A DNA stretch of 64,000 nucleotides from Diphasiastrum complanatum (taxonomy: Eukaryota > Streptophyta > Lycopodiopsida > Lycopodiales > Lycopodiaceae). Numbering within the stretch: the first letter of the stretch is position 1; each line of letters opens with the position of its first letter. A model generated the notes under the pieces. That model worked only from the letters and a program-made list of their open reading frames with translations, had not been told where the DNA came from and ran no database searches. Of this stretch, positions 12,461-38,100 are shown one piece after another. The translations under genes and the position numbers were made by a program. The DNA is taken from NCBI GenBank assembly GCA_029204225.1, contig CM055109.1, positions 1,438,673 through 1,502,672 on the forward strand. Direction: 5' to 3'.

Positions 12461-13019
12461 GCCAGTCTATATAAGTAACTCTGCCTCTTGTCGAGTGCAA
12501 GGATCTTATTACTCCTATCAATAATTTTGCATTGATCAAATTCGAATTCTACCTTATGACCTAAATCTGTAATTCTACATATTGATAACAGATTTGTAGA
12601 AAGTTTAGAAACATATAAGACCTTTGATAGTAGTTTGAATTGATCATGTTGGAATCACAATCTTACAGTACCTTCACTTTCAATAGTGTGGGTGCTATTG
12701 TCACCAAGATGAACAAATTTTTTCGTGTTGTAAGGCATGTAGGAGTTGAAAATCTTACGTTGATTGGTCATGTGTTGAGTTGCTCCAGAATCAAGAAACC
12801 ATGAATCATCCAAAAATGCGCTTTGGTCTTTGACCATGAATGTGCCTTCGTCCACTTTGACCTGGAGAGATGATCTAATTTGTTGCAGCCTTCTTGGAGC
12901 TTTTCTGCTTCTGGCACTTAGAGCCTTTGTTGACATATAGAGCTTGAGAGAAGGAAGTAGACAAAGTGTCTTGATTTCTTCTATTGTCTTCTTGCAGCAA
13001 CATAGTGATAACTCTAGTA
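12461..13019 (-). pseudogene. Copia element C protease and 3' part of gag
   Basis: The protease active site is WFLDSGATQHM at about 12805-12770. Upstream is the gag tail beginning at the CACTA junction (VITMLLQEDNRR, about 13012-12977) and a Lys-rich stretch. The 5' part of gag lies across the transposon at 25461-26040 in the matching frame. Confidence 0.9.
13017..13019. other. Left target-site duplication of the CACTA element (GTA)
   Basis: GTA directly precedes the element's first base. The same GTA follows its last base at 25458-25460. Three-base duplications are the rule for CACTA transposons. Confidence 0.85.
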
Positions 13020-13059
13020 CACAACTAGAAAACTCTGTGTTTGTCCATGCAGAGTATCT

Positions 13060-13410
13060 ACGCGAGACCCGACACTTAGTCAATTTTCCGAAATTTTGTT
13101 TGCATAGAACATCCACGCGTGGATTATCCACGCCAAAAAAAATTTGAACATGCCTCCGGCCAGTCTACCGGTGTTTTTTTGACACAACGCCGAAAAAATT
13201 ATGTGCGTGGATAATCCACGCAAAATTGAATTTTGAAAATTCCGACAACTGTTTCGGAGGGAAGGTTGGCGGCGCCAGAAAGCAGTTTTGGCATGGATAA
13301 TCCACGCGCATGGATTATTGATGCAAATTTTTGTTTGTTCACCGGACCAGACCAAAAGTTAAAGATATCCACGCGTGGATATCTTCTGCGTGGATTATCC
13401 ACGCAATTTT
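13060..13410. repeat. Left subterminal palindromic repeats of the CACTA element
   Basis: Repeated quasi-palindromes of the form CGTGGAT-A/T-ATCCACG: CGCGTGGATTATCCACGC near 13107-13125, GCGTGGATAATCCACGC near 13204, ATGGATAATCCACGCG near 13294, ATATCCACGCGTGGATAT near 13366 and GCGTGGATTATCCACGC near 13388. In En/Spm elements, clustered subterminal motifs are the binding sites of the TNPA protein; the same role is inferred here. Confidence 0.88.
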
Positions 13411-13423
13411 GTTTTTTGCTAGT

Positions 13424-14510
13424 TGATAATGACATGACATTAGTTAAATAAATATATTTCTAAAGTGAATCTTACTATGATTAGACTATATATATATTTT
13501 TTCTAAAGTGAATTATATTATGATGAGTTTTTTTTTTTTGCATGTTCATAATGAAATGGAATTAGTTAAATAAATTATTTTCTAAAGTGAATTATATCAT
13601 GGTGTTCCTAGATGATTGGGATTTTTGATGAGGGCGGCCACCTACTTTTATAAAACAGTTGACTCGAGCTACCAAGAGGGTAATTATGCATGATCTAAGG
13701 CTTTGACAGCAAGGGGTTTAGGGTCTACCCTAATGGCACTCTACCTAATCTCATATCCGAGATCATTTGATATGATTGAGAGCTCATTTTGTACATACTT
13801 CGAGAGATTATCAAGAGATGGTGATTTTGGCAAGTTTGCTCTTTAATGAGAAATTGATGAATGATAAATGTGATATTTTTTGTGTCTAATGAATAGATTT
13901 GAATCTGAACAAAGTATTATACTTTCCACGTGTGTGACAGGATGTGAAGATCAATTATTTCTAGTTTTATTGTGGTGTTCAAAAGCTCTTGCCAATTAGA
14001 TGCAAAATAGGTTGAACTGTGTGCTAATTTTCTATCTATTAGATATAGGTGAAACCTTTGATGCTTTTTCAAGGTTTTAGTATCCAAATGAGGTTCATAA
14101 CCTTTGATTTTAACATGGTATCAGAGCCCAAATACAACCATCAAGACTCAAATACAAGGAAGAGAGAAGCAATTACAAGTTGATGATTGTTTAATTTTTA
14201 TTGCCCTTATTACTACCTTAAGTTTAATGATGTTCCTTCAAGTGTGAATGAAACTGTAGCAACAAAAGAGTGATTTGATGTAATGAAAAGTGAGGTGAGT
14301 ACATGATGCATTGTTTGAGATACTTGTAAAATTATTGATCCTCCATCAAAGATACAAAATGTTAATGTTTGCAAATGGGTCTTTAAGATCAAGCTTAATA
14401 AAGATGGTAGTGTGAACAATTATAAAACAAGACTAGTTGCCAAGGGATATGCTCAATTCAAGGGGATTGACTATGATGAAACACTTGATTTTGTCATAGT
14501 TTGTGGTGGT
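13424..14510 (+). pseudogene. Internally deleted copia remnant (LTR end, PBS, RT scrap) inside the CACTA element
   Basis: A TGGTATCAGAGC primer-binding site at 14116-14127 is preceded by A/T-rich LTR-like sequence ending in ACA. About 200 bp later a short RT piece reads [13 protein letters not shown] and then [18 protein letters not shown] (14363-14480). The RT landmarks are unmistakable but gag, protease and integrase are gone. Within the LTR-like part a segment containing tagttaaataaat...tctaaagtgaat is repeated near 13438 and 13560. Confidence 0.8.
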
Positions 14511-14999
14511 GATTTCATTAACTCACATGCTTTTAGTGATTTACTGCCTTTGCGACATTTGTTAAAAAATGAGAATTTTCTTGGAACATGAAGCCGTACA
14601 TCTATCTTCACCGACATTATCTCCAAAAAAATGGGATTGAAGTCAAACTATGTCTATTCTTTCACTTACTTGACCATAAATGAGACTCTATTTTGGCTAA
14701 ATAACAATCATTTGAAAGCATTGCAAGAATCAATTTCATTCAGAATTGCAACAATCAATTTTTATTCAGAATTACAAGAATCAATTTCATCAACGACAAC
14801 ATCTTGCAATTCATCTCCTCTTAAATGATTTTCATCATCACTCTCACTTTTAAAAACATTTCATCATCCTGACTATTAGAATTTTTATTCTCAACATCTA
14901 TGGAAGTGGGTGCTTCAAGTATGGTTTGACGATTTATTACATCTCTAGGTAGCTCAATCTCATAGTTAAAATGAAGGTTTTCCATTTCATTCTCAACAT

Positions 15000-17900
15000 T
15001 TGCACCCTCAAATACTCGTCGTGAACATGGTTCAAGCTACAAACCACGATATCTTGTTTAGTCGATCTGGTTGAAAAAACACATGCAAAAATCACTATTT
15101 TAGAACATATCGAAAACTCAAATATTGAAGTCACTTGCAATAAAATGAAAAACATTATAGCATAGCATGTGCACCTGCTCACAGTGACGAGGCAACACCA
15201 ATGTCTCAAATGACTCCATGCTCAATGTTTTTGATGAATCAATCGCAAAAAATCCACTTGGATCCGATTTTACGGTTGCATTTGGCCCTCTACAAACTAC
15301 CTTGAACCATTTCACATCAAATAAAAAATAGTGTCCACTTTCACCAAATGACACATCATAAATATTTTGTATAGTTCCTACGTATTCTATATCTTCTGAG
15401 ATGGGATTCCGATCTCGTGCACTGCTTTGACTTTCTTGTTGGAAAGATGCTATTACACCACAATCGTGTGTGCATCTCTTGTTATCAATCCTTTCAACAC
15501 GAAAGTGGAAACCAAAAGCCCATATAGCATTATACATTTTGCACTGCCACATGACAAACATGAATCTCATAAATAATCACTGTGAATGAACATGGTGTTT
15601 CAAAATGATTAAACAAATATTGTTATAAACAAGAATGTTCTAATAAAAAAGTATCTAAAGAATAATACCTTCTATTCGCATCCTCTTGCAAAGTCCCATT
15701 CTGCGTTTGATATTTTTTGTCCCTCTTTTGTTGTTTTTTGTAGTGTGTCATGCACCCACTCTATAGTGCATTGCTTGGGAAATGGCTCAAGATCATGTGA
15801 ACTTGAGGCCATGTGTCTACCTCTATTCTGTCGTTAGCGCTTTCTAGACAAGGCCCTTTTTTTTTTTTTTTTCATATAGGTCTAACCATTTATCCATAAC
15901 TCCACAATTATAAGGCATGAATGTAGAAATTTTTTCTCGTTGGAAGGGTGCCAACCTATGGACCTTTCCCGTCCCTTGAGGTTTTTCACTAGTTACCTCT
16001 TCGGCTTCCTCATAACGCCACAATAGTGAGCAGATGGATGTAGTTGGTGCAAAATTTTAGTAATATAAAAGAGAGATTCATGTACTAACCATCCCTCTGA
16101 CATGCTACCTTCAGGCCTTGTCTTTTGACGCACAAAATCTTTTAAGACTTTCATGTACCTTTCCATAAAGAACATCCACCTAAAAAGTCACAAATGGTTA
16201 AAAATAAGTGTTTTGTTTAATGAGTTCATGTATCAATTGATTTAGTTTAAATACACATGCAAAAGATAATTTATGCACTTATACCTAGTGTGCATTGGAC
16301 GAGCAATAGAAACTTCTTCAACTAAGTGCACCAATAAATGCACTTGTGAGTCCATGATGGAAGTCGAAAAATATCTCTCAAACATGCACTCAATCTCCAC
16401 CATATCTCAGGCCTTGCAAAGATCCAGCTCACGGATTTCTTTTGAACACATCCATCTACAACATATTCAATCCATTTTATGTCTATTTGAATTTCCAATC
16501 AATAAATACTAAATAAAAAAATGCACCAAGTACATGTAAATACCTGACAATGATTGATAGTTTGTATATGGTCTCACAAATATCTTTTGACAAGCACCCA
16601 CGAATTGACAATGGATAGATGAATTGAATTATCTTTAGCCAATCATGAGATTTGAGACCTTGCAACTTTTCATCCACTGTGAATAATGACCGTAGAGAAT
16701 GGGCAAAACCAGTTGGTGTTCTAATGTCATGAATAATGGAGCGCACATGGTTAAGCTCCCCCTTAGTGAATTTCCAAGGTACTTTTGGAGCATGATCTTC
16801 ACCATCCTGTATCCAATATTCTTTTTTGGTGTTTGATTCTTTTAGATCGTGCCTTGCAGCAATGGTATCTTTTTCACCAATCAAGTGTTTCCAAATAGAT
16901 TCACCCACATTTTTAAATATGTGCATGGGATCAAGTAGGTGATTAATCAAAAGGTTATTCCAATATTTCAAACAATGAAATATAGATAATCTTTTCAGAC
17001 CATCGATTGGCTTTGCTTGAGATTCCTCCCAAGTATTCGCCAATCTTTCACGGACATCCTCTTTGGAGGCATCTCTCTCTCCACTCTTCCTCCAAAACCT
17101 CTTCTATGAGTGTCTCTGAATGGATGGCCTTCATGCAAGTATTTACGATGATTTTCATAAACCACTTTTTTGAGACTAAAAGAGTATCTTCCCACAAGAT
17201 TTGGCCCGCACAAAAAACAAGCATTTTTTCCAGCCGTTTGAAAGCCTGTCCAACAAATGGATACTATCAATCACTATTAAAAAAAATATATGTCAAAGAA
17301 TAATTATAGCCATTGTAGTATATCATGTAATGTCAAGAATTACTAGTTGTATGTAACTGTAAATAAACTCCTATGTACACAAGATAGACATTGTTTGAAT
17401 GATTACCTGAGCATTCACCTAATCCTGGATAGTCATGCATTGTCCACATTACAATGGCATGTAGTGTAAACTCCCTCTCATGTAAGGGGCACGAAATGTC
17501 ATATGCTTTTATCCCTTCCAGAAATCGTCCAACTCGTCAATAAGCGGCTCAAGATACACATCCATGTTCTTAACCTTGCGTTGGCCAGGAATTAAAAGTG
17601 CCAACATAATGTGTCCCTTTTTTGTACTCAACCAAGGAGGAATATTATAATTTACCAAGCAAACAGGCCAAATGGACCACGTAGTTGTTCGTACACCAAA
17701 GGGGTCCACACCATCTGTTGCAAGACCAAATCTCACATTTCTTGACTCATTGGCAAAGCTTGAATACTCTTTGTTGATGTGTTGCCATGCAGGTGAATCT
17801 GAAGGTACCCGCATCATCCCATCCATAGAGGTATGGTGTACATGCCAGTCCATAAGTTGTGCAAGAGATTTACAATGAAATAAACGTTGCAATCGTGGAA

Positions 17901-18735
17901 TTACTAGAAAATGTCGTAAAACTTTCATGGAATGGTTGCCCCTTGCAAATCATCTCTATATCGAGGAGTATCACAAATGGGACATGTCTTGAGTGATTCG
18001 TACCTTCCTCGATATAAAAAACAATCTTTTGGACATGCCTGATATTGCTTGTAGTCCATCCCGATGTTAGACAACATCTTTCGTGCCTCATTTCTTGTCT
18101 CAGGCATGACATTCCATTTTGAGAGAATTTTGTTTTTCAATAGTCTGTACATGACAAAAGAAGTCATTGTAAGAAAAATATCACTCGATGTCCAAATTGT
18201 AAATTTTGTTTCAAAGCAAAAATGACAAGTAGATGAAATTTTTTTTACTCAAATAATGATGTGAGGCTTTGGTCACTCCATCTATATTTGGCTTGAAGAT
18301 TTAATAGAAGTAGAGAAGTCGCCAAATGAGATGTCTTTGCTCCAAGATACAATGCGATCTTTGATTCTTCTCGCAATTTTCTTTCTTCTTTAGACAAAAG
18401 TGCCTCCTCATCTTGTTCATTGTGTCTAGCTGCAATATTGTTCTTGTACATATCATCCAACATGTCTCCCATGACTTCAAATTCATCATTCATTGGAAGC
18501 TCATTTCATCGTTGGAACTTGTTTGCGAAGAAGTAGATCTAGATGAGCTAGATTTAGATGCATTAGTCTCTTGATTAATGCGCTTATCAATTTCCATTAT
18601 CTCTTTTAAGCCTTGACATAGATGACGAAGTAACTTTATATGTGGACCGTTGTATTGCATTTGTCGTCTACGTCGACCATTACGAGGATTATTGTCTCCA
18701 ACACTAAATGAGGATGAAGAATCCTATATATCAAA
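15000..18735 (-). pseudogene. CACTA TNP2-type transposase (TNP2 + DUF4218 + DUF4216), frameshifted
   Basis: Read downward. A Ser- and Arg-rich leader lies at 18735-18500, followed by MNDEFEVMGDMLDDMYKN at 18493. The TNP2 catalytic region begins near 18165 with NEARKMLSNIG, ACPKDCFLYRG and CPICDTPRYRDD, then PRLQRLFHC, MDWHVHH, RFGLATDGVDPFG, WPVCLVNYN and PPWLSTKK (17900-17600), then PLIDELDDFW, HDYPGLGECSG, CFLCGPN and DPMHIFKNV. DUF4218 follows (VHLLVHLVEE, then RPEGSMSEGW, 16380-16080) and DUF4216 (YDVSFGESGHYFLFDVKWFK, 15360-15290). Introns with GT-AG borders are visible, for example between ECSG and FQTAGKNACF. Frameshifts near 18500, 17930, 17510 and 17045 disable it. Confidence 0.92.
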
Positions 18736-18848
18736 ATAACAAGAAGTAGGTTGAAACAATGCTTGATAAACATCTCCTCCCAATACTTGATAGATCTAAA
18801 TGTTGCATATGAATATAAATTACCTCTTAGTTTTAAAAGTATGAACAT
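18636..18848 (-). pseudogene. Second, truncated copy of a SET-domain C-terminus
   Basis: The peptide YATFRSIKYWEEMFIKHCFN (18819-18760) is a degenerate copy of CATRSIRFGEELFIKYSFN from the SET gene about 330 bp to the right. The underlying DNA also aligns well (TAGATCTATCA...GGGAGGA...TTCATCAAG...GTTTCAACC type). Only the last motif of the domain is present. It sits immediately upstream of the transposase leader on the same strand, separated by a possible acceptor (tatatag at 18722-18728). Confidence 0.75.
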
Positions 18849-19046
18849 AACAATGTATCTATTACACAGATTTGTCTTTTCAACTTGTTAACATTCAATG
18901 AACTCAAAGACGAATAATTCTCCTAACATTTAATCTAGACAAATGACGAATAATGCTCCTAACATTTGACATATTTAATGACACAAACCAAATACAATCA
19001 AGATGCATGGGTTATACATCTCTACATATCAACAAAATTTAAATTT

Positions 19047-20100
19047 TCACATTTGACTTATTGTATTTTGCAAACATTTGGGTAGAGGACGGTTGAAACT
19101 ATACTTGATGAACAATTCCTCCCCAAACCTGATAGATCTAGTGGCACAGACCATTACGTAAATGCCCTTTACATTCCTAGTAAAATATTCTTCTTTTCCA
19201 TTGGTGCGTTCTTCAAAATCACAATTCTTCAATAGAGGGTAGCCAATGGAACTATTTATATATGCAGCAATGTTTCCATGCACATCTGGATGTCCATCAA
19301 TGTATGTACGATTTGCCCTTGAGATGTTGCCTCCTTGCATGCGTTGCTCCTCTAAAGAACAAGCATTTGAATTCAAGCCATATACTTGCATCCTCCAGTG
19401 GTGACGACACAAAGCATGCCAATCACCCCAATTGTATTGAGGTCCTGCATATAGCATCAATGTCACAACACTATTTAAAGGGACCTCAATACTACTCAAT
19501 GCAAAAAGGCCCAAACTAGCCTCATGAAAGTGTTCACTAGGCATGATCATGTACATTCGACCCCAATACGTAAATGGTGTTCCATTTAATGGTAATGGTG
19601 ATTGGAGTGGCCAACACAAATATCTACTTCTAATAAAAGTTTTTACTAATGGTTGCAAGCTAGGTGGAAGAGGAAGGTCAGACAAAGAACCTAGAATGTC
19701 TTTTGACACATCAATAGTGCGTAGTAATTTTCAATTGTCTTTCAAACTAGTCATAATACGTCCAAGACGTGTTCTCTTTTTTAAAGGGGTGGTCAAGTTT
19801 GTGGAATCTACGTGGAGTATCATGGAGGACTCATGTGCAACATCTAGGATAGGTGTGGTTGGGTGGTAAGAACGTTCTAGAGATTTGGAGACATGGATTG
19901 AATCACAAGGCATTGATGAACTAATTCTATCATGCAAGGGGTCATCGTCAACAAGAGCATCATCTAGGACCAATGATGATCCAAAATCAATATTCATGTG
20001 ATTTATCCTATCAATAATATTCTCGATCTCTCTTGCAACTCTTTTTCTTGAAACCAACTTATGGTCCTTCTTCCGCAAAAGTTGAAAATGTTAGATGTAT

Positions 20101-20156
<56 letters not shown>

Positions 20157-20505
20157 CATGAAACATAAATTAATATATAACACAAACCGTAAACCAGTAG
20201 CATGAAACACACACACAAACACACACAAACACACGCACACACACACACACCCACCCACACCGACCCTAAACACACATGAAGAGAAAAACAGAGAGAACAT
20301 TATAGAGTGCTAATCAAAACTCCCGAACCACACGATTATATCCTACTCCAGAATGTCACCACATGCTCCCTCCCTGCGGCGTTTGGGCTTTTTTGTGGAA
20401 CTCATCTTCCAACAAAAAACATTTGAACCACGTCTTTAACGGAAGAAAACAAGGGCTACACAACTTCCTAGAATTGGGAGTGTTGGTTACCTTTAACTCT
20501 TTCAT

Positions 20506-20596
<91 letters not shown>

Positions 20597-21648
20597 CGTG
20601 AATGAGTCTATTATGGGTGATTGATATGCAAATCAAGATTAACTACATCTAATCATTCTATTTGGATTTTTTACTTTTAGAAGCAAGTGAGAGATTAACT
20701 TCATCTAATCATTCTATTTGGATTTTTCTTTTAGAAGCAAGAGAGAGAGATTAACTTCATCTAAATATTCTATTTGGATTTTTCCTTTTAGAAGCAAGTG
20801 AGAGATTAACTTCAAAGTATCGTGACACTCATCCTATCGCTCAATATTTATTGGCCAAACTATACTTGAAGTGTCATAAGGGTCAAAGATTAAAGCATTT
20901 CCGAAAAATACTTTAAAGAGTTTACCTCTCGTACTCTTGGATTCTCTGTGTGCACTCCATTGGCCCAAATATGATCGTTGACAATCTTCCTTGTCTGAAT
21001 CCTAAGGCCTTTGCATTGTGTGCATGTACATGGTATCCTCTCATCATATTCTGGTTGAAACTAGTCCAATAATTCAATTGCAAATTGCACAAATTCTTTC
21101 AATGTCATTCAAGTGAAAATTGACAAATTATAACATGTGACAAAAATTGACAAAATAGTCTTTGTACATTTAGTGCATTTTCAACCTTCATTTGTGATGG
21201 AGTGGTGTCTTGGCTTTCCAAAGAGCAATATACTATATCCAAAGAGCAAATCGGATTACATCACTATTACAAATAAAAAAATTATGACATAAATCAATAT
21301 ACATACATGTGATGGATCAATAGGCGGTCTACGTCGACTGATGGAAGAGCTTGAAGATGAACCAGTCAATAGTTGTTCATTGTACTTTAGTCTTGATTGC
21401 TCCTTTTTTCTGTGATAGAGCTCAATTCTTTTTTCTTTCTCTAAATCACGTGGAGGTACGATAATTTCCCTAGAATTCATAATTCCAATCAAATGTCATT
21501 GTAAGAATAAATTTGCAAGAAAAATTATACACTCATATTCAAATAACAAATAAAGTGCAATTGATGTCAATATCAATAACAATATATACCTGCTGTTGTG
21601 ATCATGAGATGAATCGCTATCTGATGATGATGACATCGTCGATGACAT
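19047..21648 (-). CDS. Cys/His finger + SET-domain protein carried by the CACTA element (one in-frame TGA)
   Basis: Four exons join with correct phases and GT-AG borders: 21648-21590, 21469-21307, 21060-20926 and about 20069-19047 (458 codons if the TGA is read). Exons 1-2 give a Ser/Asp-rich start and a basic helix (RDLEKEKRIELYHRKKEQSR). Exon 3 holds IPCTCTQCKG with a later DHIWANGVH, a CxCxxC...H finger like the transposase-associated domain normally found at the N-terminus of TNP2. Exon 4 ends in a SET-like domain: EASLGLFALSSI, YIDGHPDVHGNIAAYINSS, NCDF and VCATRSIRFGEELFIKYSF. SET domains methylate protein lysines, usually histones. Odd: TGA at 19731-19733 splits exon 4 before the SET domain, and the usual NHS motif is INSS. 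It may be recently inactivated or read through. Confidence 0.72.
20103..20153. repeat. (CT)n microsatellite in the SET gene's third intron
   Basis: About 50 bases of CT next to the splice acceptor side of exon 4. A degenerate CA/CAAA array follows at 20204-20256, and a second (CT)n of about 84 bases lies at 20510-20593 in the same intron. Confidence 0.95.
20634..20815. repeat. Triplicated ~57-bp tandem repeat in an intron
   Basis: Three successive copies of a unit containing agattaactTCATCTAAtcattctatttgga and ending ttagaagcaagtgag. They carry scattered substitutions and small length changes. The location is intron 3 of the SET gene. Confidence 0.85.
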
Positions 21649-21689
21649 ATACACACTGTAGCCAGCTACAATATACCACATCATAAGTA

Positions 21690-22830
21690 ATCATTATGAG
21701 ACCGTATGTTCTGAACAAATATAATAGAGTTTGTTAAAGACATGCCAACATCTAATCCATGTATATTCTACTTATGCTTAATGTAAATCTAATATTCTAA
21801 TAACATTGCTATCAAGAAAATTGCTTGGGTGGGGCAACACATGACGAGCAATCAAATTGAGGTTCATACTGACAAATGTTAGACATTAGTAGATAGTGCG
21901 TGCAGGCCTATCTCAACTAATTTAAAGACCACATAACAGTCAATGTTCGAAGCTCTCAGTTTAAACTCTTGTCTAAGATGAGTGATGATCTCACTCAATC
22001 TATCTTTCAAGATGGAATGATCAAAATCAAACAATCAGTCATATACTCAATTGATTCATTGCCCACTCAATCACTCATTTGATTAATTAATGCTTGGCTC
22101 GAGTTAGTTAAAGGTAAATCTCTTTGGATTGGCCTAGTGTGCCATGGTATCTCATGACAAGCAATATGCATTAGCCCTTTCTATCTATGGTTGCTTTGTA
22201 TGCAAGAAATCATATACTAGATAACACACCATTGATCAACATCTTTATTACAATGCTAAATGATATTTCAACTAATTACTATGATTTCATATAAGGTTAT
22301 ATAGGTCACACACCAACAATTAAAAAGATTTATCATATAGGTCACATATCACTAAGGTCCTCAATATAACATAAATGCTTTTGATCATGAATCTAAATGA
22401 CCCCATGCAACCATTTAAGAGGCCACATGACAAAAGCAAAAAAAAATTTATTTGACCATGTAATTATGTCATCAAATTATATCAAATCTATGACACCTAG
22501 ATTATTAATAAACTAAATGTTTTATAATATTATTTCATAAAATCTTAAAAAACTTGTCAAATTACTTGTTCAATAATAATATGTACTATTTCTTATCTCA
22601 TGATTTTGTCTTGTATGTCAAATCTCAGGAAAAATAAAATTTATAACAATATAAAACTAGCTTTAACAACTAAATACTACCATAATGATCTTTGAATTGG
22701 TTTTTTTATATTCCATCATATTAAAAAATATATTTTATGTAAAATCCTACAATAAAATATTCTCATAAAATCTAGAAAAGATTATGAGAATATTGAATGA
22801 CATTTGAAGCATGCAAGCCCATGTGGGGGA
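21690..22830. other. Intergenic spacer inside the CACTA element
   Basis: A/T-rich DNA between the divergent SET gene (minus) and the plus-strand transposon gene. No gene was recognised. As the space between two diverging transcription units it should hold both promoters. Confidence 0.5.
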
Positions 22831-22834
22831 CCCT

Positions 22835-22925
22835 CTCACAAAACGCGTGGAACATCCACGCGTGGATATCGCGTGGATTATCCATGCATGAATAACTTCT
22901 CCATGGATATTCCACGCGAAACTTG
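22835..22925. repeat. Internal cluster of CACTA subterminal-type palindromes
   Basis: CACAAAACGCGTGGAACATCC starts at about 22837. Nearby are CCACGCGTGGATATCGCGTGG and TCCATGGATATTCCACGCG-type repeats. These are the same family as the motifs at both element ends, but lie about 2.5 kb inside the right end and about 320-400 bp before the plus-strand gene start. Confidence 0.8.
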
Positions 22926-23243
22926 AATGCCAATAAAATAGCATTTCTGCAAGCATTCTTGCTCCTCTTCTTTTGCTTTCAAGTTTTATAGGTTTTCTAA
23001 TCTAGTGTTTAGTGCTCTTGCTTGCTATTGCTCTTATAGATCTTGCTTGCTTGCTTTTGGTTGCTCTTCTTTGCTAGTGATCTTGCTCTTGCTTTTGCTT
23101 GCTCTATTGATCTTGTTTGTTCTTGCTTACTATTAATCTATTGCTTTCTATTCATTGCGTACTCTTCTAATCTAAAAGTCTTCAATACTCTTTCACTCTC
23201 ATTCTCCACTACTTTCTAGCTTTTAAAGTTTTTCTTTGATACA

Positions 23244-24305
23244 ATGTCTTCAAGTGGTAGGTCAAGTGGGAGACCATCTAGAAGAAGAGCTCGTGAGGAG
23301 CCCGAAGAATATAATCAAGAGTGGTTTGAGAATCTATCTCCTCAACAAAGAGATAAAATTAAAAATCTTGTGTTATCTTCTTCGGGTGAATCATCCGACA
23401 GAAGAGCTTCCGAAGGTGCAGAATCGTGTCGTGTGCATTATGATCTTAATCCACGTGGTGGAGTTATAAAAAATACGCATGGCAATGTAGTTCATGCCCA
23501 TTTGCGTGATTTAGTTGCTTTATATTTTGGTAAAGATTACATGATCGATTGGTCCTCCCAATCGCTTGAAGACAAAAATAAAATAATAGAGACTTTGTAT
23601 TCTGAATTCCCTCAATCCAATGCTTTTAGTAGGACTTGGGCCTTGAATACAATGTGCCTTTGGATTCGAAACAAAAGGCAATTGATGAGAAGAGTCGTGA
23701 GGAATCCCAAGAATCCCACGAAGCCTGGATGGTGCTCCAAAGGGATTGGAGGAAGGTGAAAGGGCAATTGTTGCAAAACAATCCCCAAAAGTATGAACAA
23801 CAACGTAGGGCCGCCGCCGAGAAGCTCTTAAGACATGGCCTAAGTCACTTGGGATCGGGAGGAAGGGGCAATCCAGAGGCCCAATTTGTAAGTGCAATAT
23901 TTTTTAATATGATTCTATTTTTGTAGTGAGATTGTTAATGTTTTTTTATTGCTAAACTATGGTTTTTTTGTTGAATGTAGCTTAGTGATTTTGAAAGACA
24001 CATGACCGCCGCGGAGTACAAGCAAGGTTACGATCATGGATATGCCGGCCTTAAGGCTTTTATGGAATCCCATGGATTGTTTCCAATCGTAAACTCTTAA
24101 CCTTTATTGTTTTGTGATTGTTTACTTTGTGGTTTACAAGTAAGTTTAATCTCAATTTAATTAAATCTTTGATTCTATTTTGTAGAGAGGCTCTACAACT
24201 TCAAGTGTTTGTGATGTGGAAGAAAATGTGGAAGAGAACGTGAAAGAGTATGTGAATGAGAGCGAAGGGGAGTTTGAAGATGTGGAAACCAACGTACACC
24301 TATAA
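23244..24305 (+). pseudogene. Second CACTA-encoded protein (plant transposase-24/TNPA-like), 1-bp frameshift
   Basis: Three exons, 23244-23887, 23981-24088 and 24186-24305, with GTAAG/TAG-type borders and matching phases. The N-terminus is Ser/Arg-rich, followed by AHLRDLVALYFGKDYMIDW and a Trp-rich segment (WALNTMCLWIRNKR). The frame then changes within a GGG run at 23742-23744, after which the family-like DWRKVKGQLLQNNPQKYEQQ and HLGSGGRGNPEAQF continue. The last exon is acidic (EENVEENVKEY). Layout and the GSGGR motif suit the second protein of CACTA elements, which in En/Spm binds subterminal repeats. One missing G explains the frame change. Function is inferred, not shown. Confidence 0.7.
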
Positions 24306-24309
24306 GATG

Positions 24310-25165
24310 AAGGAGGCGAGGAGGGAGGAAGTGATGATGAGTAGAGGTTTTTTAATTAAATGTAAGGCCTTGTAGAAGGCAATGTAGGAAGAGAGAATTT
24401 ATTTTCTCATCAATGTGCTTGTTTTTAAATCAATCAATATAATATTTTGGCATCACATCATTCTTGCAAAAATTTTGAATGCATATATTTTTAATCCATG
24501 AATGCAAATGTATAGTCCATTGAATGCACATCTATTGATTGCAAATGTATCTATTGATGTATTCAATGCAATTTATATTCTATTTAATGCACATCTATGC
24601 AATGCAAATGTATCCATTGGTCAATGCAAATGTATCCATTGGTCAATGCAATGTATCTATTTTAGCACATGATTTGCATGCTAGAATGCACAATAAAAAG
24701 TAATGGAAAGCACAATGGAAAGTAATGGAAACCACAATATAATGCATCAATAGATAACACATTAAGTTATCAACTAAATATCAAATGAATCAAAATAAAT
24801 GTGAATTTACCTTTACTATTGTATCTCCATTGTTTTGCAATCTTTGCTTTTCCTTTTGCATGCACTTGATCTTTGAATCCTTTGCAATGAAAGCTCATTT
24901 TTCATTTTTCATATCCAAACCTACATCACAAACAAAAAAGATCTTAAAACTTATGATCACAAAACACATACTATTAACATCCATCAATGAACTAAAAATC
25001 CTAAACACTATCAATCTTCTCACTCACATTCATCATCATCTCATTCTCACTCCCATCTATACTCTCTTTTTCTCTCTCTCTCTCTCTCTCACACAACACA
25101 AAAATAGAAAGTCACTTCTAGTGTCAGAGCGAACCACATTCTGGTTCGCGCCAAATGTTTTTTTT
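24310..25165. other. Non-coding tail of the plus-strand CACTA gene, with short repeats
   Basis: A/T-rich. It includes tandem copies of aatgcaaatgtatccattggtc near 24600-24650 and a (CT)n run of about 25 bases at 25065-25090. No gene was recognised. Confidence 0.55.
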
Positions 25166-25440
25166 TTTTTTTTGTGGATTATCCACGCAAAATTAGAATT
25201 TTTATTTTCGGCTCCGGGTGTCGGAGGTTTGCCCGGCTGCCGGTAGTCGGACTTGGCGTGGATAATCCACGCATTTTGAATTTCACGACATCCGGCCGAT
25301 CTGCTGCCGGAAATGACATTTGCATGGAACATCCACACGTGGATAATCCACGTGCTTGTATCCACGCCAATCCACGGCTATATCCACGTGAATTTTTTTT
25401 TTGCCCGCTCGTCCTCCTTTGTATTGTGCGTGGATATTTG
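25165..25440. repeat. Right subterminal palindromic repeats of the CACTA element
   Basis: GTGGATTATCCACGC near 25173, GCGTGGATAATCCACGC near 25256, CACGTGGATAATCCACGTG-like sequence near 25335-25352, and several half-sites (TATCCACG) to 25390. They mirror the left cluster, and GC-rich spacer words such as CCGGC are shared with it. Confidence 0.88.
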
Positions 25441-25460
25441 CTATATGTGTTCTTGTGGTA

Positions 25461-28803: not shown

Positions 28804-31800
28804 ATGGCGTTGCTTGCAACTGCACCGTGGGGTACTCAGACGGCATTGCAGAAGAGGTTAGGGTTTTCAGCAAACCCTCTCAGGGGATGTCAACATCAGG
28901 GACTTAAGAAGATAGTGGATACGGCGGTTGCTGATGTCCATCTTCTAGATCTTTCATCCTCTAGTAAGATTCCTTTATTTCCTACGTCTGTTTATCTTCG
29001 TATCTTTGTGCAGTTCGCCATGGCTTGACCATCAGACATCTCACATTAAAAATATGTGCATCGTGTGCTTCGGTTGGCATGTTTTTTGGTATTGCGATAA
29101 ACTGGATATTGTTGAGGTCAAAAGATTTGAGAAAAAATTCGCAGTGGGTTCCACACTTGCTTGAAGTACTTGAGATTCGTTGAAAATATAATGCATTTAG
29201 GAATTAAATTCAAACTATGCTGCCTGTGCTGACATTTTCTTTCCTTGGTGAAGCTGCACACAAGCCAATCATGTGTAGAGCATCGGCCCCTTCAGCTGTC
29301 ATGGCTCCAAGAAGAGAGAGAGACCCTAAGAAAAGAGTGGTCATTACCGGCATGGGCCTGGCCTCAGTGTTTGGTAATGATTTGGATGTGTACTATGAGA
29401 AGCTTTTGGAGGGGCAAAGTGGAGTAGACATAATAGATCGATTTGACGTTTCAAAACATTCAACAAAGTTTGCAGGACAAATTCGAAATTTCTCAATGGA
29501 GGGATATATTGATCCAAAAGTGGACAGCGAGCTAGATAATTGTTTTAGGTACTGTCTTGTTGGTGGAAAGAAGGCACTGGAACATGCTCATCTTGGAATT
29601 GAACAACTGAACAAGGTAATTGCCAAAGCTAGATGTCAAATGGTCTGCATTTGTTTTTTTATTGTATGTCCTAATTTGTGCTTCATAGCGGAGATGAATT
29701 CCTGACTCCAAGGAAAGTAAAGGTCTTCACCAACTCACCACTTATTGAAGAACCAAATGGGCACATAATTGCATTATAGTCTAAAATCATATGAGATCCA
29801 ATTTTTATTGAGTTATGATTGAACCTTGTTCTTATATGTCCTTATTTGTATTGCTGATTGGAGCCAAACTCCTGACCTCAACTATTGGAAAGGAAGTCCT
29901 CACCAACACAGCATTTAGAGGCTAATTTGTTCAAGAATGCAGAATTCCCCTGTCCTGGTTTATTAGTATACAAGTATTGACCTCATGCCAAGTGGGAAAA
30001 ATATTCATTGCCGTGGATTTGCATGTTTAAAGTCTTCTTGCAGTTTTTAAGCTTGGGCACATATGCCTTTCTGGTTTGTTTGAGTTTTAGAAAGTCTTCT
30101 GATTTTGTGAACGCACAAGCCTCTTCTCGGCCTTCGTGAGTTTCTTCTACAACTCTTTTCTTTGAGATAGTTTATGCGCTCATGATAACTTTCTTAGAAA
30201 TCTCCTTGATGTCATTCGGAAAGGGTGAATCTTACAATTCTAGCCATACAAAGACGGGCCATTTTTATGACAAGATATTATTGGGTGTTTTAGAAACTAG
30301 TCCAAAGAAAAAATATCTTTGATCAGTTAGAGCTTGTTGAAATCAATTTTATTACACTCATAAAAAAAATCTCAGCCCCTATCACTTTGGAGCAAAATAA
30401 CTTGTGCACCATCAGTATATTTACTTCATGAAAAGCTCCTACAGTGGCGTTTCTTACTAAGAATGCCCACGTAGAATGTTTTTCACATATTCTTTCTGTC
30501 AAGTGAATTTTTGGTTTCAAAGTTTTTAGCTAAAGATGACTTTAAAATGGTGTTACTGTGGAGGTTCATCAAAATACAGGTGAAACTTAATTTTTAATTG
30601 TCAGGAGTAGGTGAAAGAGAACAAAGAATATGCGAGGAGTTGGGAATCATATCCACATAGAAAAGGAGGTAATTATGGTTAATTGTCTTTTGCTTCTTAG
30701 TCAACACTGGGTCTACCCAAGAGAATCTGGATTCTTCTGAAATCCAGATAGCAACTTATGCTTGGGTACCAATGAGACATAAGCAGTGCATCACTGAATT
30801 TATTGTTTTAATATGCGTTTGATTTTTTTGTTGCATGGACATTTTTTCTATCTCTACCTTATTACATCACTGACTTCTAAAAATAAATTTGCGAGTTTGG
30901 ATATATTCCAGTCTCACAAATAGATATATATCCACATGGAAAGCTCTCACTGACGTCTATGAGGAAATGTAAAAGAGATTGATGGGAATGAGCAGACAGT
31001 TTCATTAGGCTTGCCTCACTGCATTCTAAAGATAGCGAGGAGGTGAAGTCATTGATGACTAAGAAAAACCCACCGGTTGGAGGACCTTATCTACCCATTT
31101 ACAAGGAGTTAGATAATCTGTTGTTGACAATCAATGAGGTGCATCAGCTGTTAGCAAGCCTCAAGGCAGATGAAAATTGTTCAAGCCAAGAAAACTCGAG
31201 GATGCAGAACAAATCTCAAAGATGGCGAGTTAATGGTGTACACCTCTGCTGCCAATGATGAGGCAGATAGGGTTGGGACATTGAAGTTTGAAAATAGAAG
31301 AGATTGACCAGCTGAAGAAAGAGATAAAAGTTAATCTGCCAGCAGGGATAGCAGGAGGTAGAACGTGAAGAAGAAAGGGGCACAGTTGGGTGGCCATCAA
31401 GCAGTAAACAGCTGCACCTGCTTTGGACCGATGCATGACCTGCTGGCAGGTTCTTCCTTATCAGGCGGTTGGTAGCCATCTGAGTGATTCCTTTTTTTGT
31501 GAAGAAGTGGCAAATTCACACAATTATGAAGAAGAGAGGTTGCAACATGTGAGGAGAACTAGCATGGTGATAATAAAAGCAAAAAAGCCATTCAAAAAGA
31601 AAGAGGGTGGTTGTAGAAAGACAAGTGAGAAGCACGACTGGGGACAGAGGAGCATGAATGATAGAAACTGAGTCTGTTCTCTAAGTTAATTGTAGGTAGG
31701 AGGACAACAGTCAATCTTCAAGCTTATGAGAGAGAAAGAGAAATCACAAAGGGGTAGCATCAGCTAGGAAAAACATGTCGTGCTCTTTTAGATATTGCTA

Positions 31801-34800
31801 TGCAGAGTTGCAGCGGGTCGCGATCCACTGCGAAAACGTTTCGGATCGCGCGATCCGGGACCAGAAACGTGATCCTGGATTCGAAAAAAAATTTCAAATT
31901 TTTTTCTCATCCCAATCCGCTGATGGTTGTTATTGAAATGAATAGCAGCTTACTGCTGCAGATATGGACAGTGAATGCAGATATATCTTCATGAAGAGCA
32001 GATTATTGCTGCAGATCTGTACAGTGAATGCAAATATACTGAACCCAATGAATGCAGCCAACCCTAAACAACCAGAAAGTTCTGACAACCAGCAAGTTTT
32101 TGAAAAGTTTTCTAATTTGTGGGCCGCCTAACCATCTGAAACCAAGCAACAGAACTGCATAAGAACTGCTTTTTTAAAATCCTCTCACATGATACTGATA
32201 TTTGCAAACTTTGATAAAAAAGAATAAAAAAAATTTGCAATCAGGGAAACCCTAATGGGAATTCCTGGATTGCGTTCCGGATCATGATCTGGAACGCGTA
32301 CTGCACTTTGTTGCAATGGATGACAAACAAGGGACATCACAATTCACTATTTCTTGATGAGAAGATGTTATGCAGAAAGACCATTGTTGTAGTAGGATAA
32401 AGAAGAGAGGAGCATTGTCTGCAAATATGAGTTATTATTCTCTCTTCTGGTCAGGTATTTGAAGCATAGTTGCACAGAAATGCGTTTCTGGGCAAACACG
32501 TTTCTGATCTAGAAACATAGTTAATTTTTTTTTTTAGAAAATAGCTTATGGCTGAAAGTTTTTTAGGGGAGCAATGGTCAAACCAGCGTTTTGCATCTGA
32601 GAAGTGCAGTAGATAGGGCACAAACAGATCTTATTTTCAGTAGCTATTTGGTTGTTATTTGCTCTGGTTCTCAATAAATGCTAATGCTACAGTTTGGGCT
32701 ATCAACTTATGGATGATGATCACTGTTGCAATCATTTCACTGGAGATGTGAGTGCAATGTGCATACAGTTGGGGGCATAAATATTGGGCCCTTATCAGTG
32801 CGCATTTGAACCCCCATTTTTATCTACAGGGGGTGCAGGGGGGCAGTGATCCCCTTGCTACTATCGCCGGGGGGGTCCAGGGGGGGCCGTCCGAAGCAAA
32901 AAGCGAGGTACAATTGCTCTACAGTTCCCCCCCCCACTGGAACCATCTGTGATTATAACGAACATGCTAGAGGTTAGTGTTGAATTTTAATCCTTGACAA
33001 AACCCAACATGGATTAATGCACCTGAACTGGACCATCCTATACCCGAAACATTCGGCAAACTATACAGATGTAATGCTCTTAATTAGAGCTTTCATCTGA
33101 TACCCATATTGACCACCAAAAAAAAAAAAAGACATGTTTCTGAGAAACGTTACCAGAATCCAGAAACGTGTTCTTGAACCGCGTTTCTGAACGCGTTTAC
33201 AGAAATGCTCGCATTCTCGAGGCATATGCTGAGCCAGGTGCTGAGCCCGGCGAGCCGTCAGATGCCGCAGACTCTGTTTCCATTGGTGCACCCACTGCCA
33301 CCGCCCCTGCCACTAGTACACCCACCGCCACCGCCCCCACCCCCACCGCCGCATCCGCACCCGCACCCGCCACCGCCACCGCCTCCGCCACAGCCACCCG
33401 TACCCCTCCGCCAGCAACCTCCACTGCTGCACCTACGCATGTGCCATCACCGTCAGATCTGCGGGTCCGTCCACATCCTCCGCTTCCGCACCTACACCTA
33501 GGTCACCACCTCCAAGTCCGCATCGTCCACATCCACATCCTCCCAGCCATCCACATCCCGAGGCACCAGACAGATGTCCATGCCGGGATCTTTCAGAGAG
33601 AGGCAGCACAGAGAGGCCACTAGGACCATAGCACAGATGTTCTATGACCTGAACCTCTCCTTTATCATGGCATCATCCCGCATCTTTCGAGAGGCTATCT
33701 CGAAAGTTGCAGTCTGTGGGCCCGGCTACACACCACCCACAGCCGATGCACTAGGCGGCCCTTTGCTCTTGGAGTGGGTTTCATCCGTCAGAGAGAGACT
33801 AGTCGCACTGCAGGAGGCTTGGGATAGATTCGGCTGTTCCATCATGGCTGATGGGTGGACTGATCGTCGTAGACGTCCACTCATCAACGTGATTGTGTCT
33901 AGTTGTTACGGTTCCATGTTCCTACGCAGCATCGACGCCTCCGAGGCAGGGAGAGTGCATTCGGCCGAGTACATTAACACCATCATCCGTGCAGCGATAG
34001 AGGAGGTCGGGCCACAACGCGTTGTCCAGGTACAATTTTCTTTCATTAGTTGCTTGGTCATTTACTGCTTAATGTTGATACAAAAGTTTTGCGTAGTTTT
34101 CGATTGATCGCAATGTGTTTCCAAGCTGTGAACTGATAATGTAAACGTATCGCGAAAGGTTGTGACGAACAATGCGTCCAACTGCCGCGGTCTGGGGGAG
34201 CTTCTTATGGCAGAGTACCCCTCCATTGTGTGGACTCCATGTGCCGCACACTCACTGGACCTTCTCCTGCATTCCATCGGGCGCCTGCCTTGGATCAGTG
34301 AGATTCTCACGAAGGCACTTGCGGTTGTGGATTTCGTCACACTAGCAGATGCACTTCACAGAAATACACCCCCCCTGATAGCATTCCATAAACACATACA
34401 TTACATTGCAATACACCAGGCACGCGTTGCACAAAAAACACACCGTACATTAATTCATCAGATGTATCAAAACAACAATACGTATTCTCGCCATATACGG
34501 CTGGGGTTGTTCTTTACTCTATGTTAGACACTAAATGCTGTCTCATCTATAGACGGCACCTGAAACGGACCCCGTTTGGATGAACGGGGCCGTCGGACGA
34601 GAAGCCGCAAAAGCTGTTATGGGTGGTCATGGTCTGCTGACTCACTAACTTTGCCAAGTTGATTTGATTCGTATCGGCATAATTGGATTCGTATCGGCAT
34701 AATTTTGTCACTGCTGTAGCAGAACAGAATGGGATGATCGGTCTTGTGGTTCCCTGTAGTGAATGGCATAGTTCTGCTAACCATTCACTCTTCTGGTGTC

Positions 34801-35103: not shown

Positions 35104-38100
35104 ATGCTTATGCTTCATAACTGTTGTCAAGTTTGATGTCGTTCAGTACAGTTTCATATGATCCTCGGTGCATAAAACTATGTCTATCGTATTCAGACCG
35201 ACTTGGATAGTTCGAAGTCTGTCCTACTTTGCAGTGTTGATAATTTTGTGCTAATCTTTCTGATCATTGTAATGTCTAAATAGCTTAGCCTTGTCTGCAT
35301 AAGGGTTAGGTTGCCCTCACTGGCAGTTTTTCTTCGAACCTGCAGATTGACAAAGAGAGAGTCGGTGTACTTGTTGGTACAGGCATGGGAGGGTCAACTG
35401 TGTTTTCGGAGGGAGTTCAGTCTTTGATAAAAGGAAATGATCATATAACACCATTGTTTCTCCCTTACACTCTCACCAACATGGGTTCTGCACTTCTAGC
35501 CATTGAATTTGGATTCATGGGACCAAATTACTCAATTTCAACAGCCTGCGCTACCGCTAACTTTTGCTTCTATTCAGCTGCCAACCACATACGCAAAGGT
35601 GATGCAGATATTATTGTTGCAGGAGGTACGGAGGCTGCACTTGTTCCTGCAGGGTTAGGTGGATTTGCTGCATGCAGAGCTTTGTCTCAAAGAAATAGCG
35701 AACCACAGACTGCTTCTAGACCCTGGGACAAGGGCCGCGATGGCTTTGTAATGGGGGAAGGTGCTGGTGTTCTGGTACGTGTGGTATTCTGTACGTGCTC
35801 GTTTTGTAGTATTGCAAGTGGAAGCTGTTTCAGAGCAGTCAATATTTTGCTCAAAAGAACTGAAATGTCCAATAACTGGCATGTTGGTAAAAACATCCAT
35901 TTCTTTCCTCAAGATCTGGAGTTTGAGTCCACTCAGCTGCAGGGAAAGGATATAAGGAGAATATTAAAATCAATTACACTCAGCTTTCTATGTGTGGCTG
36001 GACTAAGAAATCTGAATATCTTAGTTTATCTGCGATTGAGGCATTATTAGATTGATATAGACTTCTGCTTTACTTTTTGCCAAGATTGGGATGCTTAGGG
36101 AAAAGCTATCTTAAGCTGTACTTGTCCAAGAAAATGTTTGGTTGTATTTTTCAGCAAGAATATTGTGCACATGAAAAACCTCAAGTTGATAAATATTTAT
36201 CACCATAAAAGATAGCAAGTTGGGACATGCGTTCGTTACACATCTCAAGCTTGAGAGTAGAAAACATTGTAACTCTCATTTGTATGTATTTGCCTAAATA
36301 TTTGTATATGTTCAGATTTATGGTTTATAATATAAGAAAGCGCAGAGTAGAAAACATTGATAGAAAGAAGACCATGTTAAAATATTCCATGAAATTAGAC
36401 CATAATTTCTTTCTTAGAGTGACTCCTCCTGTGGATTGCTTTTTGCACGGTTCTCATGCATTGCCAAAATGGGTTACGTTGATGTGTCATGGCATGTAGT
36501 CTGTGCTATGCATGATGGAGTTGACAGTTTAAGCTTCATGGGCTGACTCCATAAAGCTAAATATTGACAGTCCGTGCTATGCATGATGGAGTTGACAGCC
36601 TAAGCTTCATGGGCTGACTCTGTAAAGCTAAATATTGCTTGGCTTTCTGGCAGATGAGTGCTGTTCACCTCGGGAGGAGCGATGCAAACTCTGTACATTG
36701 GTCTTTGTATGAAAGTACAAAAGCTAATTCAATGCTTATTTGTATCTGCAAACTGCACCTATTCCTGGGTGTTGATGAATAGTCCAGATGAAGTTTACAG
36801 TTTGATACTGTGAGGTGTACTTGATATAATTTAAGATTGCATGCCTCTTTGGTGATTCTACAGTGATATTTTAGACTTCACATGGTTACATAGAGATTCA
36901 CCAAATAGGGAAGAGATTTGGCAAAATAATTACCAGCTAGAGAAGTTCATGTCACTGTTTTATTGAGCTTTTAATTTTCCACCAGTTTTCCATGAAGCAC
37001 TTTTGTGGGGAGTCTGTCAACATAAACTCAAGTGATGCAACTCTGAGACATTTTGTAGATATCTTTGTACATACGATTGTGTGAGTGTGTTTTGGCCAGA
37101 AAGGTTAGTAGCATCTGTGGAAGGAAGGATATTATGAAGCACATGAATTAGCATTTACAGCCTTCTTGCTTACTGCTTGTATTTCTTCTTGTTGTCATAC
37201 ATCCATTATTTTCTCATGATTATATATACATTTGGGGTTCCAAGTATATTTTCATTTTTCTTAGGGGATCCTTTTATGGAAAGAGTTACTGGCACTTTAC
37301 TTTCTTTGGTACCATATAATACTAGTGAGATACATCTGCTGAATTGGTGTTAGTTTGGCTTGTTATGCGCCATATCAATCAGCTTTCATGTTTTAAGGGC
37401 TTAAAGAGCTTTACTTCATCTTTGTTTGAAGCTAATCTGTCACCTGCTATGATTAGATCATGGAGAGTTTGGAACATGCTATGAGTCGAGGAGCTCCAAT
37501 CCTTGCAGAATATTTGGGTGGAGCAATTACATGCGATGCATATCATATGACAGATCCTCGAGCTGATGGACTTGGAGTTTCAACCTGTATTAGAAAAGCT
37601 CTTGAAGATGCAGGAGTGTCACCAGAGGAGGTCAGGATTCTGATCATCAAAATCTGGTGAACAATCTACTAGAAATTCTGCAAGCTAAGTGGTTAGCAGC
37701 TCAACTGGCATTTTTCATCTCCAGATGGCTTGCTAACGTATAAATGCGTTGGGATGATTTGTTTAGCGAAAAAAGCTATTTTTTAGTTACTGGCATGTTT
37801 AAATGAAACTACCAAAACAAATATGATTTGTTGCAGGTAAATTACATCAATGCACATGCTACATCGACACCTGTGGGGGATATGGCTGAAGTTAATGCTT
37901 TAAAACAAGTTTTCAAAGATACGTCATCCATTAAGATGAATGCTACTAAGGTAGTTGAGGCTAGTTTGTCTGCCCTTCGTGTGAGGATATGCACTTGAAA
38001 GAGATTTTATGCGTGAAGGGATTTCTATTGACTTATTTTCTGTAGTTTAACTACTAAGAAGATATGAATCCATTTTGTTGTGTAGTCCATGATAGGACAC

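Follow-up and report, generated by a model that had tools for sequence, protein, structure and literature searches.

Can a plant transposon carry its own chromatin-modifying enzyme, and could it direct that enzyme to its own copies by means of the transposase's DNA-binding finger? This question is raised by a locus in the clubmoss Diphasiastrum complanatum (GenBank assembly GCA_029204225.1, contig CM055109.1, positions 1,438,673 to 1,502,672 of the forward strand), a stretch of 64,000 nucleotides that we refer to as the window and in which all coordinates count from its first base. A first-pass annotation of these letters had proposed that a CACTA transposon in the window carries a spliced gene joining a transposase-type finger to a SET domain, and had suggested that the product could control the silencing of the element. 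We found that a SET exon lies within the transposase gene of this element, between its sole finger exon and the transposase core, and that the element belongs to a high-copy family. The explanation we favor, to which we give roughly an even chance of being correct, is that this CACTA/EnSpm-type clubmoss family encodes its own SET lysine methyltransferase, that the finger is shared between two proteins by splicing, and that self-targeted methylation alters silencing. The observation behind the annotation is confirmed, and the interpretation placed on it is partly supported.

A SET exon between the finger and the transposase

The finger-SET gene is predicted to have four exons on the reverse strand: exon 1 (21590–21648; 59 nucleotides, beginning with ATG), exon 2 (21307–21469; 163 nucleotides), exon 3 (20926–21060; 135 nucleotides), which encodes the finger, and exon 4 (19047–20069), which encodes the SET domain (Pfam match at about 19101–19418) and ends with a TGA stop codon at 19047–19049. 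All junctions among these exons are in phase. The exon 1 donor is GT in the window and in all six other copies of the element that hold this stretch, at a slightly shifted position in some, while the exon 3 acceptor is AG in 9 of 9 rows and its donor is GT in the window and in seven of eight others. In most other copies the exon 4 acceptor is TTTTGCAG/AAG, at 20072 in the window register; the window has GCGG for the common GCAG and retains an AG only 3 bases further on. The position of the exon 3 acceptor is uncertain because upstream residues (MTLKEFVQFAI...) raise the finger score by 2.6 bits. In the window copy the proposed four-exon structure is interrupted by an in-frame TGA. The intron that separates exon 3 from exon 4 holds two long CT arrays (20103–20153 and 20508–20594).

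The product of exon 3 contains a CxCx2C...H...H finger assigned to the transposase-associated domain (Pfam match at about 20947–21102), and 8 of the 10 other copies that were fetched have the finger. The corresponding profile, PF13963, gave a marginal score of 28.5 bits against a cut-off of 27.7 when the window letters were used with X typed at a TAG codon; other forms of the sequence fell below the cut-off, namely a peptide composed from other copies (27.5 bits), the version with the exon 2–exon 3 junction of the first-pass annotation (24.9 bits), and the whole-frame scan (21.6 bits). Pfam scans of the element, with stops as X, covered the reverse strand of 13020–22600 and both strands of 22600–25457, and they placed on the reverse strand, in this order, one transposase-associated domain, SET, Transposase_21 pieces, and DUF4218; no second finger domain was found in them.

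The first transposase exon begins at 18723 on the reverse strand, in phase 0, after the acceptor ATATATAG. This acceptor is retained in 11 of 11 rows, the transposase frame opens directly there, and the exon lies downstream of the SET exon in all 10 fetched copies. The sole finger exon ends in phase 0, and both exon 4 and the 18723 exon start in phase 0, such that the finger may be common to the SET protein and the transposase by alternative splicing. One pre-mRNA would then have two splice outcomes: joining exon 3 to exon 4 would yield a finger-SET protein terminated by the stop codon of exon 4, and joining exon 3 to the 18723 exon, with SET skipped, would yield an ordinary finger-transposase.

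Two other arrangements of the same exons can be weighed here. The finger-SET gene could be independent, transcribed from a separate promoter to a separate 3' end, in which case the transposase would have its own first exon and the finger would be unshared. The stop codon of the SET exon is common to 18 loci with an open SET frame and an ATG lies inside the first transposase exon, both in keeping with this arrangement; the lack of a second finger domain in the element scans nevertheless speaks against it, as does the transposase frame, whose opening coincides with a strong acceptor and so calls for an exon further upstream. We regard an independent gene as rather unlikely. SET and transposase could also form one large fused protein, given that the domains occur in order on a single strand, but the open loci have in common a stop codon at the end of SET, which speaks against this, and no in-phase donor was seen by eye near the SET end, making a fusion highly improbable.

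Just ahead of the 18723 acceptor, at 18742–18798, lies an 81% identical repeat of 57 bases from the 3' end of the SET coding sequence (19084–19140), and the repeat precedes the transposase exon in the window and in all 10 fetched copies. This repeat may be a trace of the arrival of the SET exon.

Ends and classification of the element

The whole element spans 13020–25457 and is read on the reverse strand; its ends are CACAACTAG... and ...TTCTTGTG, flanked by GTA at 13017–13019 and 25458–25460. We located these ends from subterminal repeats, the flanks, and a comparison with 10 other copies, for each of which two stretches were used and which were picked for an open SET frame. Homology to other copies begins at 13020 in 3 of the 10 and stops at 25457 in one, which is among those three and has its own TTT duplication. 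Target duplications of 3 base pairs (bp) surround the window copy (GTA/GTA) and a copy designated C9 (TTT/TTT), and the claim that both ends of the element could be fixed holds.

Classification as CACTA/EnSpm follows from a Transposase_21 (tnp2, PF02992) match of 138 bits against a cut-off of 28.6 in a separate open frame. PMC12730594 uses CAC...GTG termini together with a 3-bp target duplication as the mark of this superfamily, and both features are seen in the window copy and in C9. The element terminates in CACAA...TTGTG rather than the name-giving CACTA. Pairing CACTA with TAGTG as candidate ends produced nothing useful. No Harbinger-type transposase match appeared in the Pfam scans of the element frames, which argues against membership in HarbingerS.

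Evidence for the SET domain

The translation of exon 4, with X typed at the in-frame TGA, matched the SET profile PF00856 with 25.4 bits (expectation value (E) 2e-5) against a cut-off of 22.4. In the whole-frame scan the score was 21.4 bits, slightly below the cut-off owing to the greater target length, and a related D. complanatum protein, P0001, reached 33 bits. An AlphaFold model of the domain (predicted local distance difference test (pLDDT) score 85) retrieved SET proteins in 50 of 50 PDB rows among the matches listed. A profile search of the PDB gave 50 matches up to E 1, all but three of which are SET proteins by name (the exceptions being two entries for dipeptidyl peptidase 8 and one for a phosphorylase). 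The best of these was LegAS4, which has YINFS at the motif in the printed alignment; NCBIfam returned two LegAS4 matches, both sub-threshold, and a PDB phmmer search with the single window sequence found no match.

In an alignment of the window piece with 49 of 54 relatives (A6; see below), G74, L91, Y99, D145, N159, and N169 are invariant in 50 of 50 rows, and Y210 is present in all 47 rows with a letter there. The motif INS-x occurs across the family, with N in 50/50. The domain is predicted to adopt the SET fold, and its GxG, Asn, and terminal Tyr positions are conserved among the relatives. A chance SET-like motif was excluded by the profile, the fold, and the family together. An origin in viruses was considered and set aside, as two scans of viral contigs returned no relative; in a fold search of BFVD, 11 matches reached E ≤0.001, with identities of 10–21%, and most of the named ones are viral SET proteins.

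Copy number and state of the copies

A protein search of the 1.74-gigabase genome returned 2,747 candidates, of which 150 were scored; these 150 match at 85–100% identity and lie on many contigs, and they do not count independent insertions because some are near-duplicates on short contigs. The possibility that a host pseudogene had been inserted once is ruled out by these multiple matches. The first-pass annotation had named two results that would speak against it, the lack of a SET match and the lack of another copy with the gene, and neither occurred. The SET frame is open to a common TGA stop in 18 of 30 loaded loci, a share that is biased upward given that these loci are the best-scoring and one of them is the window itself.

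The window copy is probably dead, judging from its sequence. Its exon 4 is broken by the TGA at 19731–19733, where 12 of 12 rows of a separate alignment (A1) have Cys. The TAG ahead of its finger is CAG in all seven other copies with this stretch, and would lie outside the coding sequence only if the exon 3 acceptor of the first-pass annotation is correct. Residue 72 of the SET piece is G in most of the family (47 of 50 members) and in 23 of 29 clubmoss copies, but S in the window. The damaged exon 4 acceptor described above adds to these defects.

We examined selection on a 681-base piece of SET, for which 30 copies were loaded, 29 were ungapped, and 23 remained distinct after near-duplicates were dropped. 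Singleton variants comprised 43 silent, 115 replacement, and 9 stop changes, compared with neutral expectations of 42.0, 116.4, and 8.6. As far as these sequences indicate, the family has the look of one that expanded recently and whose copies are drifting; neutral copies of this kind neither show nor exclude selection on active source elements.

Finger-SET proteins in a liverwort

Three protein searches identified 54 relatives (P0001 to P0054), and those from named organisms belong to D. complanatum, Calypogeia fissa, and the liverwort Riccia sorocarpa. P0001 of D. complanatum is the closest named protein, with 87% identity. Ten Riccia proteins have this type of SET domain (P0031, P0034, P0041, P0042, P0043, P0045, P0047, P0049, P0050, and P0053). 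Alignment A6 excluded P0005, P0050, P0051, P0053, and P0054, and in the tree, which was rooted at its midpoint for drawing only, the clubmoss proteins group with P0002 and P0007 (support 100/100) and eight Riccia rows fall together (100/97).

A complete CxCx2C...H...H finger, collinear with that of the clubmoss, lies upstream of SET in Riccia P0034 and P0043. P0042 has F in place of the first Cys of the finger, and P0049, P0050, and P0053 start inside it; P0031 is without the finger Cys residues, and P0041, P0045, and P0047 are without the finger region. The finger of P0043 aligns with that of the clubmoss without gaps and with 13 of 36 residues identical, and the alignment of P0042 has a two-residue gap. 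Among 2,000 shuffles, the alignment score was reached by none for P0034 and by one each for P0042 and P0043. PF13963 matches on the Riccia finger pieces were below the cut-off (P0043, 15.4 bits, E 0.022), with no match on the P0042 piece and none among the whole Riccia proteins scanned. On the basis of the protein sequences, the combination of finger and SET is common to a liverwort and a clubmoss, by either descent or transfer. The Riccia SET genes occur on several contigs, and P0041 and P0045 have a 3' tail in common; their number on several contigs and this tail make them look repeat-like. The tail was also considered as a transposase exon, which was unsupported (E 0.56, no Pfam match).

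These results bear on the possibility that a CACTA element picked up a SET sequence on a single occasion and has since multiplied it as a passenger of no use to the element. CACTA elements capture host sequence, and the sampled copies evolve neutrally, as would be expected of a passenger. The open SET frame in 18 of the loaded loci fits this account poorly, however, as do the key columns conserved across a wide family and the shared finger-SET architecture of Riccia, and we consider a passenger improbable. A broader proposal is that liverworts and clubmosses harbor an old land-plant CACTA lineage with its own chromatin writer, in which SET would be an alternative terminal exon on the transposase finger, so that the enzyme would be directed to copies of the element and control their silencing. 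We advance this only tentatively and think it somewhat doubtful.

Proposed function and evidence against it

A shared finger would guide the SET protein and the transposase to common sites in the element, and these may be the subterminal repeats. The SET domain could there methylate a histone and thereby change the silencing of the element itself, or it could modify the transposase. With respect to direction, we think anti-silencing more likely, and repression is a real rival. The SET protein could thus serve the element without countering silencing, by repressing the element's own transcription or by methylating the transposase, and so limit copy number. The anatomy of the gene fits this equally well, and the nearest folds include both activating (MLL) and repressive (EZH2, ATXR5, SETD8) enzymes; overall we consider such a role quite unlikely.

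Several observations weigh against a self-targeted methyltransferase with a shared finger. The score of the finger is marginal, and the template modeling (TM) scores of the SET model, normalized by the model, are just 0.34–0.48. The usual SET motif is NHSC, and the motif here is INSS. Agreement in phase of the two acceptors would arise by chance about 1 time in 3, and 9 of the 10 fetched copies have a first transposase exon interrupted by stop codons or frameshifts. Finally, the mean ratio of nonsynonymous to synonymous substitution rates (dN/dS) over the 23 copies is 0.84, which points to neutral drift, and variants common to at least three copies (2 silent and 15 replacement, against 3.5 and 12.4 expected) show no silent excess.

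Comparison with known systems

SETMAR is a single host gene that arose by one fusion of SET with a mariner transposase; it resembles the clubmoss gene in that SET is joined to transposon-derived DNA-binding sequence, but in the clubmoss the element itself carries and spreads the gene. VANC comes from MuDR-type VANDAL elements, which PMC12730594 mentions, and is not known to have a SET domain, whereas the clubmoss element is CACTA-type and has one. The likeness to VANC would be one of outcome: VANC, a protein made by the transposon, counters silencing with sequence specificity, and the clubmoss protein may act similarly. Transposon-borne SET genes are already known from other superfamilies: PMC12730594, citing Kojima and Jurka 2014, reports genes for SET histone methyltransferases in the HarbingerS and MuDR families of Phytophthora. 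These are likewise DNA transposons with a SET gene, but they differ in transposase superfamily and have an oomycete host. En/Spm of maize belongs to the CACTA superfamily. Alternative splicing of a single unit provides it with several products (tnpA to tnpD), among them TNPA, which restores activity to a methylated promoter (PMC1636069); the accessible part of that article makes no mention of a SET domain, whereas the clubmoss element has a SET exon inside its transposase gene. PMC4158355 treats the exon structure of CACTA transposases, and the term "SET domain" does not occur in its accessible text. Among the titles and abstract openings listed in searches of the open literature, which leave out subscription papers and Repbase, none reported SET in a plant CACTA element.

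Should the favored explanation be correct, a plant transposon would act on its own chromatin through the finger of its transposase and directly counter host silencing. CACTA would join the transposon superfamilies with SET genes, as a plant branch beside the Phytophthora cases, and some unannotated "SET domain-containing" proteins of liverworts and clubmosses may be transposon products rather than host regulators.

Other features of the element and its surroundings

The subterminal repeats are of the GCGTGGATWATCCACGC type and occur at 13102–13416 on the left and at 25168–25390 on the right, with an extra group at 22845–22888. In the Pfam scans, Transposase_21 pieces occupy three frames of the reverse strand at 17043–17823, and the best stretch of DUF4218 lies at 16041–16184 on the same strand. 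A divergent second gene is an open frame on the forward strand (23220–24302); its product had no Pfam match of note, and a related reading is present in 2 of the 10 copies. Our guess is that it encodes a second CACTA protein like TNPA.

Copy C8 (loci L037/L038) has about 5.2 kilobases inserted at the finger exon, corresponding to 21068–21072 in the window, and the two matches on either side overlap by 5 bases, resembling a target duplication. The element in the window itself seems to lie in a copia relic, apparent pieces of which were read by eye from open frames on either side. Further along the forward strand, 29208–29705 and 35310–36050 hold open frames that look like pieces of a 3-oxoacyl-acyl carrier protein synthase gene, and frames resembling a hAT-type transposase lie between them at 33502–34527, both likewise read by eye.
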